NCBI GenBank assembly: GCA_026415155.1
Contig: JAOAHQ010000007.1
Location: 62,001 to 126,000 of the forward strand
Direction: 5' to 3'
From: Rhodocyclaceae bacterium
GTDB lineage: Bacteria; Pseudomonadota; Gammaproteobacteria; Burkholderiales; Rhodocyclaceae
Length of the DNA stretch: 64,000 nucleotides
Under the pieces are notes generated by a model. That model was not told the DNA's origin and searched no databases. It saw only the letters and a list, made by a program, of their open reading frames with translations. Positions 55,305 through 64,000 of the stretch are shown piece by piece; position 1 is the first letter of the stretch; each line of letters opens with the position of its first letter. The position numbers and the translations under genes were made by a program.

Positions 55305-56381
55305 ATGCCGTCCCGCCAGCGCCGACTTTTGGTCGTTGGCGCCTTGACCCTGCCTTGGCTGCGGCCGGCGCGCGCCGCCGATGTGCTCCACCTCTACAAC
55401 TGGAACAACTACATCAGCGCCGCGACGATGGCGCGCTTCGAGGCAGGCTGCGGCTGCCGCGTCAAGGAGGACTACTACTCCGACAACGAGGAGATGCTCG
55501 CCAAGCTCGAAGCGGGCGCGGTGGGCTACGATCTGCTCGTGCCGACCGGCAACGCCGTCGAATCGCTGATCCGCCGCGGGGCGCTCAGACCCATCGACCG
55601 CTCGCTGCTGCCGCACTTCGCGAACCTCAAGCCAGCCTTCACGAACCTCTGGTTCGACCCCGGCAACCGCTACTCGGTGCCTTATGCCACCTCGATCACG
55701 CTGATCGGCTACAACATCGAGAAAATGCGCGCGCTCGATCTGCCGACGGACAGCTGGGCGCTGATCTTCGAGCCGAAGCATCTGGCAAAAATCAAGGGCA
55801 AGGTCACAGTCCTCAACAGCCAGCGCGAGCTGATGGCGGCGGCGATGAAGTATCTCGGCCATTCGGTGCAATCGACCGACGCCCGGCAGTGGGAAGAAGC
55901 CAAGCGCCTCATCCTCGCCGCCAAGCCCTACTGGGCGACCTTCTCGAACAGCACCTACATCAAGGATCTCGCGATCGGCAACATTTGGGTCGCGCATGGC
56001 TACTCGAACGACATGTTCCGCGCGCGTGAGGACGCCAAGGCCGCCCATCGCCCCTTCACGATCGGCTTTGCGACGCCGAAGGAAGGCGCGGTGCTCGCCA
56101 TCGATAGCTTCGTGCTGCACAAAAGCGGCCAGAATCCAAGGCTTGCCCACCGCTTCATCGACTTCATGCTCGAAGGCGAAAATGCTGCCGACGTCTCGAA
56201 CCTGATCGGTGCCGGCAACACCAATGCCGCGGCCATGCCCTTCATCCGCCCCGAGATCGCCAGTGACCCCGGCATCTTCCCGCCGCCGGAAATTCTCGCC
56301 CGCCTCGAGATGCTGCGCGACTTCGAGCCCAGGCTGCGCCGCACGCTCTCGCGCCTATGGACGGAGATCAAGGTGCGCTGA
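55305..56381 (+). CDS. potD: Spermidine/putrescine ABC substrate-binding protein
   Basis: DVLHLYNWNNYISAATMARFEAGCGCRVKEDYYSDNEEMLAKLEAG. Confidence 0.95.
   Translation: MPSRQRRLLVVGALTLPWLRPARAADVLHLYNWNNYISAATMARFEAGCGCRVKEDYYSDNEEMLAKLEAGAVGYDLLVPTGNAVESLIRRGALRPIDRSLLPHFANLKPAFTNLWFDPGNRYSVPYATSITLIGYNIEKMRALDLPTDSWALIFEPKHLAKIKGKVTVLNSQRELMAAAMKYLGHSVQSTDARQWEEAKRLILAAKPYWATFSNSTYIKDLAIGNIWVAHGYSNDMFRAREDAKAAHRPFTIGFATPKEGAVLAIDSFVLHKSGQNPRLAHRFIDFMLEGENAADVSNLIGAGNTNAAAMPFIRPEIASDPGIFPPPEILARLEMLRDFEPRLRRTLSRLWTEIKVR
55307..55330 (+). repeat. Dispersed 23-bp repeat, overlapping potD start codon
   Basis: gccgtcccgccagcgccgactttt. Confidence 0.9.
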
Positions 56382-59994: not shown

Positions 59995-60782
59995 GATGGG
60001 GTCTCCTCCGGTTTCGGTCGCAGCAGTATACCGAGCGCCCAGCTTGCTGCCGCGAGGCCGAAGGCAGCGGTGACCGCCATCGACGAGCCGTAACCGGCGC
60101 AAGAGAGCCCGTGCAGGCCTGCTTCATCCATATCGCAGGCCAAGGTCTGCGGCCGCCGGATCGGCTCGTCCGAAAACACGCAAGGCACGCCGAATTTCTT
60201 TTTCGGATCGCGCGGGAAGCCGTAGTCGCGCCGCAGCTTCGCGCGCAGCTTGCTGGCGAGCGCATCCTGCGTCGTGCGGGCAAGATCGTCGATCCGCACG
60301 CGCGTCGGATCGGTGCGGCCGCCCGCACCGCCGGTGGTCACGATGGGAATCCTCTGCCGCCGGCAATGGGCGATCAGCGCCGCCTTCGCCTTGACCTGAT
60401 CGATGCAATCGAGCACGAGATCGCAGGCGGGAATCAGCGCCGCGACGTTTTCGGGCGAAACGAACTCCTCGACACACGCGACGCGGCAGGCCGGGTGGAT
60501 GTCCGCAATGCGCGCCTGCATCGCCAGCCCCTTGGCCTGGCCGAGTGTGGCTTCGAGCGCATGCACCTGCCGGTTGAGATTGCTCTCGGCGACATGATCG
60601 AGATCGATCAGCGTGAGCCGTCCCACCCCAGAACGCGCCAGCACTTCCGCCGCCCACGAACCGACGCCGCCCAAACCCACCACGCAGGCGTGCGCGCTGC
60701 CCAGCCGCGCGAGGCTGCCCGCGCCGTAAAGCCGTTCGATGCCGCCGAAGCGGCGCGCCGTCCCGCCGGCGCCGACTTTCAC
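59991..60782 (-). CDS. tcdA: tRNA threonylcarbamoyladenosine dehydratase TcdA (GTG start)
   Basis: [63 protein letters not shown]; start overlaps intI stop. Confidence 0.9.
60757..60779 (+). repeat. Dispersed 23-bp repeat, at intI/tcdA junction
   Basis: gccgtcccgccggcgccgacttt. Confidence 0.9.
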
Positions 60783-61795
60783 AGCCGATCCAGCGGGCTC
60801 AACACCCCGCGTCCGCCGCGATTCAAGACATGCGTATAGATCATCGTCGTGCGCACGTCGCTGTGGCCCAAAAGCTCCTGCACCGTGCGGATGTCCTGCC
60901 CGGCCTCCAGCAGATGCGTGGCGAAGGAATGCCGCAGCGTGTGCGGCGTGGCAGGCTTCGCCAGCCGCGCCGCCGTCACCGCCTTCTTCATCGCCCGCTG
61001 CAAGAGCTTCTCGTCGATGTGATGCCGCCGCTCGACGCCCGAACGCGGATCGACCGAGTAGGAGCCCGAGCAGAACACATACTGCCAGCCCCATTCCGTC
61101 GGCGCCTGCGGATACTTCCTCGCCAGCGCATCCGGCAGCCAGACTTCCGCCTTGCCGTCGCGCAGATCGTCCTCGTAAATCACGCGCCGGCGCGCCAGAT
61201 GCTCCTGCAACGGCCCCACCAGAGCGTCTGGCAGCATCGTCACCCGATCCTTCGCCCCCTTGCCATCGCGGATCAAAATCTCGTTGCGGCCGAAATCCAC
61301 GTCCTTCACCCTGAGCCGCACGCACTCCATGAGCCGCATGCCGGTGCCATACAGAAGCCGCGCCATCAGGCCATACACCCCGTCCATACGCTCCAGCACC
61401 GCACGCACCTCGGCGGGCGTGAGCACCACCGGCAGCCGCTGCGCGGGCTTCGCGCGCGTGACATTCTCCAGCCACGGCAGATCGACCTCCAGCACCTCGC
61501 GATAGAGAAACAGCAAGGCCGAGAGCGCCTGATTCTGGGTGGACGCCGCCACGCGGCCATTGACCGCCAGATCGGACAAAAACGCCTCGACCTCCCGCGC
61601 CCCCATCTCGCGCGGATGGCGCAGGCCATGGAAGCGGATGAAGCGCTTAATCCAAAAGACATATTGACCTTCCGTGCGGATGGAGTAATGTTTCGTCCTG
61701 AGCCGCGCCCGCACTTGGTCGAGCAACTTCGGCGGCGGGGGCGAGCTTGGCGCGGCGAGAGGTATATTCACCGGAGAGGAAGAAGTTGAACTCAT
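60779..61795 (-). CDS. intI: Integron integrase (IntI-type tyrosine recombinase)
   Basis: [27 protein letters not shown]; IntI-specific segment [89 protein letters not shown]. Confidence 0.96.
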
Positions 61796-61886
61796 ACGAT
61801 TCAGGATGTTATCTCGCTGACTTGCAGAGTAGACACCTTGCTAGTCAGCTTTATACACCTTTTTCTGCGTTCACTAGACGTTAGGC
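61796..61886 (+). other. Probable attI region, core site GTTAGGC at 61880
   Basis: Sequence between intI start and first cassette ends ...cactagacGTTAGGCccc. Confidence 0.75.
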
Positions 61887-62172
61887 CCCAGTCACCGTGA
61901 TGTCTTGGTCTGTCACCGCCCGCGCCAACCGGTTCCGCTCGCGCTCTGCGCAAACGCCGCTTGTCCCGCAACCGCCGCAGGCGTCCGCCCGTGCGATCTT
62001 GTCCGCTCTCGCGTCGTTACCCCGCGCAGCGGTGGCTGACCCGCGCCCATCTCTTCCCACCTTGCGCCGCTGCGCTTCGCGCTTCGTCCAAGCGCCGCCG
62101 TCCGCCCGCCGCGCTCTGGCGTCCGCCGCTTTCCTGTCCTCGGGGGCGGGCCACTTGGCGCCCTACCCCGCT

Positions 62173-62193
62173 GCCGTCTCGCCAGCGCCGACT
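62173..62193 (+). repeat. Dispersed 23-bp repeat, integron cassette 1
   Basis: gccgtctcgccagcgccgact. Confidence 0.85.
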
Positions 62194-62234
62194 GTGGCGC
62201 GGTCTCGCCGGCTCTCGCTCTTGCGAGCGTCATC

Positions 62235-62306
62235 GCCTAACATTGCGCTCCAGAGGGACGCTCCGCCGGCAAGCCGGCTTCGCGCCCCTGAGCTTGAACG
62301 TTAGGC
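62235..62306 (+). other. attC site of cassette 1
   Basis: GCCTAAC ... palindromic arm cgccggcaagccggcttcg ... GTTAGGC. Confidence 0.9.
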
Positions 62307-62328
62307 AACTTTTACAAGGGGGAACTCA

Positions 62329-62838
62329 ATGGCTTTGACCAAATGTAAAGAATGCGGCAAGGAGGTTTCAACAAACGCCAAGACTTGCCCTCATTGCGGC
62401 GTCAAGAATCCTGGCGTCAGGGCAAAAGATATGGTGATCGGCTTGCTGGTGATAATTTTCGTTGGGTGGCTCGTTACCCAATGCTCATCGAGCGACAAAG
62501 GGCCCGAGAAAACCAAAAAGGCCGAAGTAGATGATGCAACATGCAAACAAGACCTTCAGTGTTGGGGGGATAAAAACAGTATAGGCGCAAGCGTTTATTG
62601 CAAAGACTATGTTGAGAAGCTAGCAAAATATAGTGCCCGATGGACAGACGGAACTTTTGAAACAAAATTCAGCCATTTCAGGTGGCTCAACAAAGACAAG
62701 GCAACACTCACATATATCGGCGACAAAATCGAATTTCAGAACGGATTTGGGGCCTATCAAGCGCACATATATGAGTGTGATTTTGATCCTGCATCAAAAA
62801 CTGTCCTCGATGTACGGGCGCGACCTGGGCGTCTATAA
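62329..62838 (+). CDS. Integron cassette 2 protein: zinc-ribbon, single TM, uncharacterised domain
   Basis: CKECGKEVSTNAKTCPHCG zinc ribbon; IGLLVIIFVGWLVTQCSSS TM; lies wholly between two attC sites. Confidence 0.85.
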   Translation: MALTKCKECGKEVSTNAKTCPHCGVKNPGVRAKDMVIGLLVIIFVGWLVTQCSSSDKGPEKTKKAEVDDATCKQDLQCWGDKNSIGASVYCKDYVEKLAKYSARWTDGTFETKFSHFRWLNKDKATLTYIGDKIEFQNGFGAYQAHIYECDFDPASKTVLDVRARPGRL

Positions 62839-62841
62839 GCT

Positions 62842-62922
62842 GCCTAACACTTCGGTCGAGAGGGACGCTCCGCAAGCGGGCTTCGCCCGCTCGCTCCGCG
62901 CCCCTCACCTTCAACGTTAGAC
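62842..62922 (+). other. attC site of cassette 2
   Basis: GCCTAAC ... aagcgggcttcgcccgct ... GTTAGAC. Confidence 0.9.
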
Positions 62923-62957
62923 GGTTGCCCACGTGCTCATGCTTCCCGCCCCTGCCC

Positions 62958-62981
62958 GCCGTCTCGCCAGCGCCGACTTTT
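62958..62981 (+). repeat. Dispersed 23-bp repeat, integron cassette 3
   Basis: gccgtctcgccagcgccgactttt. Confidence 0.9.
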
Positions 62982-63167
62982 GCGCTCCGCTCGGGCGTTG
63001 GGGTTCGCTCTCCGTCGGGCCTTCGTCGGTAACTTCGTCTCGCCGTGCTTCGTTGGGCCGCTGGCTTCCCGCCTCGCGGGTTCGGCCCGCGTCGCTTTCT
63101 TCCCGCGCCGCAGCGCCTTCCGCCGCCGGTCGCGGGTGTGTCCGCTCGCGCTCTTGCGAGCATCATC

Positions 63168-63240
63168 GTCTAACATTGCGCTCCAAGGGGACGCTTCGCG
63201 GCGCAAGCGCCGCTCGCGCCCCTGAGCTTCGACGTTAGGC
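63168..63240 (+). other. attC site of cassette 3
   Basis: GTCTAAC ... gcggcgcaagcgccgc ... GTTAGGC. Confidence 0.9.
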
Positions 63241-63276
63241 CGTTCCCGCCCATGTCCGCGTTTTCCGCCCTTCCGT

Positions 63277-63300
63277 GCCGTCCCACCAGCGCCGACTTTT
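63277..63300 (+). repeat. Dispersed 23-bp repeat, integron cassette 4
   Basis: gccgtcccaccagcgccgactttt. Confidence 0.9.
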
Positions 63301-63484
63301 GCGCTCCGCACCGGGCCTGGGGCAGGCGCTCCGTGGCTCGGTCGTCGGCAATCTCTAGCGACCGTGCTTCGCTTCGCCCTTCGGCCCCGTCGCGGGCTCG
63401 CAGGGTTTCGGGCTCCTCGTCCGCCGCCGCCTTTGCCTGCGCCGGGCGGGGGTTTCTGGCCTTGGCGCTCTTGCAGGCGTCAGC

Positions 63485-63556
63485 GCCTAACACTGCGCTC
63501 CAGAGGGACGCTTCGCCTGCTGCGCAGGCTCGCGCCCCTGAGCTTCGACGTTAGCC
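63485..63556 (+). other. attC site of cassette 4
   Basis: GCCTAAC ... gcctgctgcgcaggc ... GTTAGCC. Confidence 0.9.
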
Positions 63557-63559
63557 CTT

Positions 63560-64000
63560 ATGAAATTTGCCGACCTCGTAACCATTCTGATGGTGCTGAC
63601 CTTCCTGCCATTCAACGAGGGCATCATTGCAAAGTCACCGCGTTGGAAGAAGCTGGCCGACCTCATCGAGATCGGAACGCTCAAGGCATTTACGTGGCGG
63701 GCAAACGCCAACGTCACAAACGAACTTGAAGTATTGGAGCGCTATTTCAAGCGTGCGTCGATTGTGGCGGGAGCTATATTTCTCCTCGCCTTCTTCCTAA
63801 AGTCACAGCCTCTCTTTCTTTGGTCGTCGCTTGCCTTTGGCACGTGTTACTTCGCTTGGTTTTCTTTCAAGTGGACGTTCAAACACAAGGAAGCCATCCA
63901 ACCGTTTGCCCCTATGGTCGGCTACAGCCTCGCCGGCCCTTGGGCACTATTCGCGCTTGACTATCTTTCCCCAGAGGCTGGCCTCATGAAGGCGCTTGCT
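63560..64000 (+). CDS. Integron cassette 5 membrane protein, truncated by window end
   Basis: Open from ATG 63560 (MKFADLVTILMVLTFLPFNEGIIAK...) to window end, starting 4 nt after attC4; not in supplied ORF track because it has no stop. Confidence 0.75.
   Translation, partial: MKFADLVTILMVLTFLPFNEGIIAKSPRWKKLADLIEIGTLKAFTWRANANVTNELEVLERYFKRASIVAGAIFLLAFFLKSQPLFLWSSLAFGTCYFAWFSFKWTFKHKEAIQPFAPMVGYSLAGPWALFALDYLSPEAGLMKALA

Follow-up and report, generated by a model that had tools for sequence, protein, structure and literature searches.

Gene-less integron cassettes that carry a dispersed genomic word and an open frame in Rhodocyclaceae: candidate passengers of DNA uptake

An integron array rich in gene-less cassettes

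The DNA analysed here (the window) is a stretch of 64,000 nt from a Rhodocyclaceae bacterium (G000:C70:62001–126000), whose genome assembly of 2.38 Mb in 70 contigs is 84% complete. Close to the end of the window, the minus strand encodes an integron integrase, IntI, of 338 amino acids (60779–61795), which scores 499.9 bits against TIGR02249 (integrase_gron; cut-off 265). The interval between intI and the cassette array holds the attI region (61796–61880, plus strand), with the crossover in ACGTTAGG at about 61878–61885 and GTTAG at 61880. Counted by attC crossover sites, the array has 14 cassettes and extends beyond the window almost to the end of the contig. Every cassette ends in an attC with a GTTAG crossover and a true integron integrase adjoins the array, which identifies these units as integron cassettes. 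Five of them contain an ORF (c2, c5, c7, c8 and c13), and the other nine have no recognisable gene.

Among the ORF cassettes, cassette 2 (62301–62916, plus strand; ORF 62329–62838) encodes a zinc-ribbon domain (PF13240), and cassette 5, which begins in the window (63551–64000, plus strand; ORF from 63560), is the first of ten cassettes that continue towards contig position 130754 (L021). The ORF of cassette 13 has an HNH domain; this putative nuclease (L021:5082–5966) bears a weak likeness, below the cut-offs, to IscB and to restriction enzymes of phosphorothioated DNA. The attC of c14, the last cassette, is shortened beside an apparent insertion element (L021:6340–6755) with a first ORF that is IS3-type by eye.

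The gene-less cassettes form two families. Family A comprises c3, c4, c6, c9, c11, c12 and c14, which measure about 305–320 bp and share 65–90% mutual identity; family B consists of c1 and c10, of 420 bp, which are 86% identical in the part before attC. Three of the nine lie in the window, all on the plus strand and bounded by attC sites: cassette 1, a family B copy and the first cassette of the array (420 bp, 61881–62300; attC 62235–62306), and the family A copies cassette 3 (318 bp, 62917–63234; attC 63168–63240) and cassette 4 (316 bp, 63235–63550; attC 63485–63556), which are 69% identical over their full length. A conserved segment immediately before attC, CGCTCTTGCGAGCATCATC in cassette 3 (63149–63167, plus strand), has homologues at 62216–62234 and 63466–63484; cassette 1 shares the pre-attC segment GCTCTTGCRRGCRTCA with cassettes 3 and 4. 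This segment is common to both families, and their remaining similarity is weak. An earlier note on this DNA had described cassettes 1, 3 and 4 as related integron cassettes and had linked cassette 1 to the others by a repeated word and the pre-attC segment. Both descriptions hold, and the search for further members that it proposed extends the set from three cassettes to the nine in this array (c6, c9, c10, c11, c12 and c14 lie past the window edge) and to relatives in other genomes.

A dispersed 23-bp word

Each of the nine gene-less cassettes contains, always in plus orientation, a 23-bp word (kGCCGTCyyGCCAGCGCCGACTTT) that is absent from all five ORF cassettes of the array, cassette 2 among them. 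It lies at 62173–62195 in cassette 1 (one mismatch), at 62958–62980 in cassette 3 (exact) and at 63277–63299 in cassette 4 (one mismatch, outside the two variable positions). The earlier note had proposed that this repeat is dispersed through the genome, and the counts bear this out: allowing up to three mismatches, the host genome has 459 matches (229 forward and 230 reverse) against one for the reversed pattern, and the window has 14 against an expectation of 0.00. Chromosomal copies in the window include 55307–55329 and 60757–60779. In a 415-kb sample, the word has sharp boundaries and unconserved flanks. Intergenic copies make up 36 of 108 in 404 kb, although a home-made gene caller scores about 92% of this DNA as coding; the coding copies are mostly in codon phase 0 and fall in linker-like protein segments.

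A survey of 151 genomes from the family found the word in abundance in six of the 68 sampled genera (g1, g2, g9, g38, g46 and g64, with dozens to hundreds of copies) and rarely or not at all in the other 62. Hundreds of copies in both orientations, in coding and intergenic DNA and within a restricted set of taxa, are what is expected of a DNA uptake sequence. Neisseriaceae (DUS) and Pasteurellaceae (USS) have uptake sequences that are likewise short, taxon-restricted and present in hundreds of copies on both strands in permissive places (PMC3630211, PMC1939737), but their cores span 9–12 bp as opposed to 23 bp, and the present word belongs to another family, the Rhodocyclaceae. Its density is about one per 5 kb, compared with one per 0.4–1.1 kb in Neisseria (PMC7371117). 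On this DUS/USS-class pattern, we regard the word as a candidate sequence of this kind in part of the Rhodocyclaceae, with a presumed role in uptake. It begins with GCCGTC, like the Neisseria DUS core, possibly by coincidence. A pilin of the ComP_DUS family occurs in all 28 genomes tried, with or without the word, and does not separate the word-bearing genera.

In word-poor genera, such copies as exist lie within tens of kilobases of one another, outside integrons (L073/L074, G083:C1:1461266–1502244; L075/L076 in G023; L077/L078 in G056), as if segments had been imported from word-bearing relatives, or as if binning had erred in fragmented genomes. That such clusters are themselves integrons was considered and rejected, as attC sites lie near them only in G057. 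One genome placed in the same genus as the host, G248, went unmatched in searches that recovered the word or the cassette context from every other genome of that genus, and may lack the word.

Within the cassettes, the word is conserved beyond its surroundings. In an alignment of nine family A copies (seven from the host array and those of genomes G340 and G057), 20 of 23 word columns are invariant compared with 32% of the columns in the remaining body. The word positions that do vary are largely those that vary genome-wide, and the word retains both of its A residues where the background has 3% A. Because it is read in different codon frames in the two families (as CRLASADF in A and AVSPAPT in B), it is not kept as protein, and selection, if any, acts on the DNA. 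Against reading the word as an uptake tag, every family A copy, and perhaps family B too, may have inherited it from one ancestor, so that the nine copies do not count as independent events.

Also against the tag reading, arrays elsewhere in the word-bearing genera mostly lack the word. A scan for more cassettes by the pattern of an attC end plus the word recovered only the known family A copies above chance. A second word-bearing cassette of the same type, of unclear homology, occurs in G001 (genus g2); it has a start codon near its head, the word, 5% A and a frame that ends inside attC. Single word copies are also found in ORF cassettes, at L148:592–614 (G330) and in the reverse complement of L134 near 3034 (G126), where they sit between attC and the start codon or between the stop codon and attC. 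In the literature searched, we found no report of an uptake sequence inside integron cassettes.

Depletion of A and tests for RNA and promoters

The earlier note had called these cassettes pyrimidine-rich on the plus strand. The direction of that bias is right but its extent was understated: A makes up only 2.4–5.6% of the plus strand in family A bodies and about 7% in family B. The dinucleotide GA occurs at 0.28–0.37 of expectation, and the two families together contain 17 six-base palindromes compared with 47 expected. In the cassette bodies of 61881–63550 and L021, up to 127 bases pass without an A on the plus strand. Next to chromosomal word copies, A content averages 16–17% on either side. 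No A-poor DNA is tied to those copies; the single striking case, at L037:13037, is the end of a gene, followed by a gene resembling one for a hydrophobic membrane protein. The A-poor state belongs to these cassettes and not to the chromosomal copies of the word.

The suggestion that the cassettes encode an RNA found no support. Folding of the nine bodies on both strands resembled that of dinucleotide shuffles (z −1.4 to +2.1); the proposed covariation analysis of the aligned cassettes, run with RNAalifold, gave −32 kcal/mol with a covariation term of +0.18, and so no net covariation; and Rfam returned a single chance snoRNA match (E 0.2). The companion suggestion of a promoter fared no better in sequence scans, which lent no support to one of the sigma-70 type. 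In 2.4 kb of gene-less cassettes, TANNNT occurs three times on the sense strand (1.25 per kb) and not once antisense, compared with 23 sites (7.6 per kb) and 22 sites (7.2 per kb) on the respective strands of ORF cassettes totalling 3.0 kb; no promoter-like site was found within the gene-less cassettes, and terminator-like sites appear at the shuffled rate.

A sense frame that stays open through attC

Where the earlier note had seen no convincing sense ORF, all 11 intact copies (eight in the host array and those of G340, G057 and G681, four genomes in all) have a sense frame. It starts at an ATG or GTG 15–17 nt inside each copy and remains open through attC to a TAG at the junction, which is completed by the next cassette. 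In the window, the frame runs on the plus strand from GTG at 61897 to 62304 in cassette 1 (135 codons), from GTG at 62933 to 63238 in cassette 3 (101 codons) and from ATG at 63252 to 63554 in cassette 4 (100 codons). The frame distances (302, 299, 290, 293 and 404) are all 2 modulo 3, the leaders of 15, 16 or 17 nt vary freely, and between the two main subfamilies a +1 change to the body is offset by −1 in attC. The sole broken frame is that of c14, whose attC is truncated. As for the ORF cassettes of the same array, four of the five end at the TAA of R'' and the fifth just before attC.

The amino-acid sequence of this frame appears free to drift. Synonymous changes, compared with the same changes placed at random, stand at chance level in nine family A pairs and in the pair of c1 and c10 (z_S −1.6 to +0.5), and the frame of cassette 1 shows no purifying selection; constraint like that of IntI would give about +5 over the length of a cassette, and the IntI control gave +10 to +12. 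Amino-acid identity is 0.52 in the sense frame against 0.54 and 0.50 in the other two frames, the predicted protein has no Pfam or NCBIfam match, and its host codon score is negative. A conserved protein under purifying selection, which the earlier note had named as the finding that would speak against its reading, was not found (z_S about 0), but the sense frame is maintained. Its statement that ORFs on neither strand are mutually conserved therefore stands for the antisense strand and fails for the sense strand, where the frame is open in every intact copy and the amino acids are unconstrained. An antisense ORF from a conserved ATG before attC was rejected: four family A copies (c4, c6, c9 and that of G681) have early stops, and the frames differ.

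An open frame costs little, because the plus strand is A-poor: at this composition, its chance per copy is 0.3–0.7 with the frame relation given and 0.11–0.25 otherwise. The start codon is not preceded by a Shine–Dalgarno-like sequence in any of the eight copies checked, which weighs against efficient independent initiation at the cassette RTG, but four of the array's five ORF cassettes are without one too. As evidence of translation, we rate the maintained frame as moderate and short of decisive. The word-tagged cassettes are apparently gene-less in content, not in frame.

Relatives in other genomes

Full family A copies occur in two other genera, represented by Azovibrio SKW93 (G340; 80% over the query) and G057 (76%), and in G681, a member of another family (70%), the last being 77–78% identical to c3 and c12. 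The presence of full copies in these three genomes indicates mobility between arrays. The G057 copy is 91% identical to c9, compared with 76% identity between the IntI proteins of the two hosts. In both G340 and G057 the copy is the first cassette after attI; in G681 it is the first in its array, with no integrase seen nearby; and in the host array, the first cassette is of family B. Fragments of the cassettes are present in G160 and G019, with a tail in a Tepidimonas array; beyond two family members, that tail was all that a pattern scan of all species genomes returned, and a plasmid search for the cassettes gave no match. In three genomes (L043, L044 and L072), cassettes resembling toxin–antitoxin modules, HicA/HicB-type by eye, adjoin cassette remnants.

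The earlier note had also considered that these cassettes were made from host sequence. Apart from the word, neither family body matches elsewhere in the host genome (84% complete), and capture from the host chromosome was rejected on these grounds. Its view that the word ties the cassettes to this lineage is upheld, as the word is a genus-level signature. In the cassette copies of G057 and G340, the word has no mismatches. G681 has no genome-wide word, and its sole good match is the cassette copy, with two mismatches. Near relatives thus sit in hosts where the word is scarce or absent, which implies that the cassettes were exported from word-bearing hosts.

Discussion

Gene-less cassettes described in Vibrionaceae and Treponema are, like these, attC-bounded, devoid of a recognisable gene and found inside or at the head of arrays (PMC11014356, PMC6557892). 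Those of Vibrio were chosen for having no ORF of more than 210 bp, and most show promoter activity, chiefly on the sense strand (PMC11014356); the cassettes described here have an open frame of 300–408 bp and so fall outside that selection, and they differ further in having no promoter-like sequences in sequence scans, in forming repeated related families in one array and in bearing a genome-wide word. The sRNA-Xcc1 cassette of Xanthomonas is, similarly, a recurrent and transferred integron cassette with a non-protein element, but that element is a small RNA next to symE (PMC12444791), whereas we detected no RNA signal. It is very unlikely that our cassettes carry promoters or regulatory RNAs as these do. 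Their position, first in the array or between ORFs, resembles that of promoter cassettes, and 2.4 kb contain three −10-like words on the sense strand; yet the plus strand has almost no A, such words are about six times rarer than in the neighbouring ORF cassettes and absent antisense, and the scans gave no promoter-like site, no excess folding, no net covariation and no convincing Rfam match. A fast-evolving gene for a small protein of about 100 amino acids, rich in Arg, Ser, Ala and Pro and either disordered or under diversifying selection, would fit the retention of start codon and frame and the indels after the start, which either come in multiples of three or cancel out (between the two subfamilies, +1 in the body against −1 in attC). 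We consider it improbable, given that no pair has an excess of synonymous changes (about +5 being expected from IntI-like constraint over this length), that this frame has no advantage in amino-acid identity over the other two, and that neither domain matches nor a positive host codon score were obtained.

Former gene cassettes that multiplied by chance and are drifting without present function would account for the lack of a protein, RNA or promoter signal. That history is quite unlikely, however, for copies that keep the word and the start codon while the rest has fallen to 61–70% identity, that have spread across genera and families, and whose frame is broken only where attC is truncated (c14). 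ORF-11 offers another precedent: lying in attI1 of class 1 integrons, it couples translation to the first cassette, and changes to its amino acids have little effect (PMC8876359). The frame described here shares with ORF-11 the small importance of the amino acids and a TAG within the GTTRRRY of the next cassette, just before the next start codon. ORF-11, however, has 11 codons, sits in attI1 and has a Shine–Dalgarno sequence, in contrast to 100–135 codons in a mobile cassette that read through attC without such a sequence. The cassettes could accordingly be translational relays, cassette-sized analogues of ORF-11 that serve chiefly to carry ribosomes through the cassette and the attC hairpin to the next cassette, with the word incidental and inherited from a word-bearing ancestor. 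In favour are the RTG at 15–17 nt in all copies with its frame to the junction TAG in every intact one, the passage of that frame across an attC that the normal ORFs of the array do not enter, the scarcity of Shine–Dalgarno sequences among the ORF cassettes (absent from four of five), and the place of gene-less copies as first cassette in four of four arrays. We nevertheless judge a relay unlikely: the cassette RTG itself has no Shine–Dalgarno sequence, an open frame has a sizeable chance given the composition, and the extra conservation of the word is left unaccounted for.

Our preferred reading, held tentatively and somewhat short of probable, is that these are mobile passenger cassettes with no conserved gene product, which bear the word as a likely uptake tag and are kept translatable. 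Its more specific form, in which the word genuinely acts as a DNA uptake sequence in part of the Rhodocyclaceae and each cassette is a selfish pairing of uptake tag and attC that rides transformation into kin, is inserted by IntI and stays translatable, is a possibility on the doubtful side. In this passenger reading, attC is the part by which IntI moves the cassette, as its anatomy and the copies in other genera show. The word, whose conservation is observed, would be kept as DNA, most likely as a DNA uptake sequence, and kin that read it would preferentially take up cassette DNA. That DNA would enter single-stranded, the form in which IntI recombines a folded attC; in Vibrio cholerae, the endogenous integrase inserts cassettes acquired through natural transformation at attI (PMC8191803). 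In the filler body, a start codon lies close to the cassette head, and the first stop is the junction TAG. Ribosomes may therefore travel across the body and the attC hairpin as far as the start codon of the next cassette, and the open frame would keep a passenger cassette from blocking or silencing those downstream. Avoidance of stops in one frame does not demand the near absence of A, and the passenger reading leaves the A depletion unaccounted for.

Integron biology has yet to explain gene-less cassettes, for which the functions reported so far are promoter activity and a small RNA. If the passenger reading is correct, these cassettes would add a third role, that of passengers which make use of DNA uptake and are tolerated because translation can proceed past them. 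One small piece of DNA would then bring together the specificity of uptake and capture by integrons, and the Rhodocyclaceae would offer a candidate uptake sequence in addition to those of Neisseriaceae and Pasteurellaceae.
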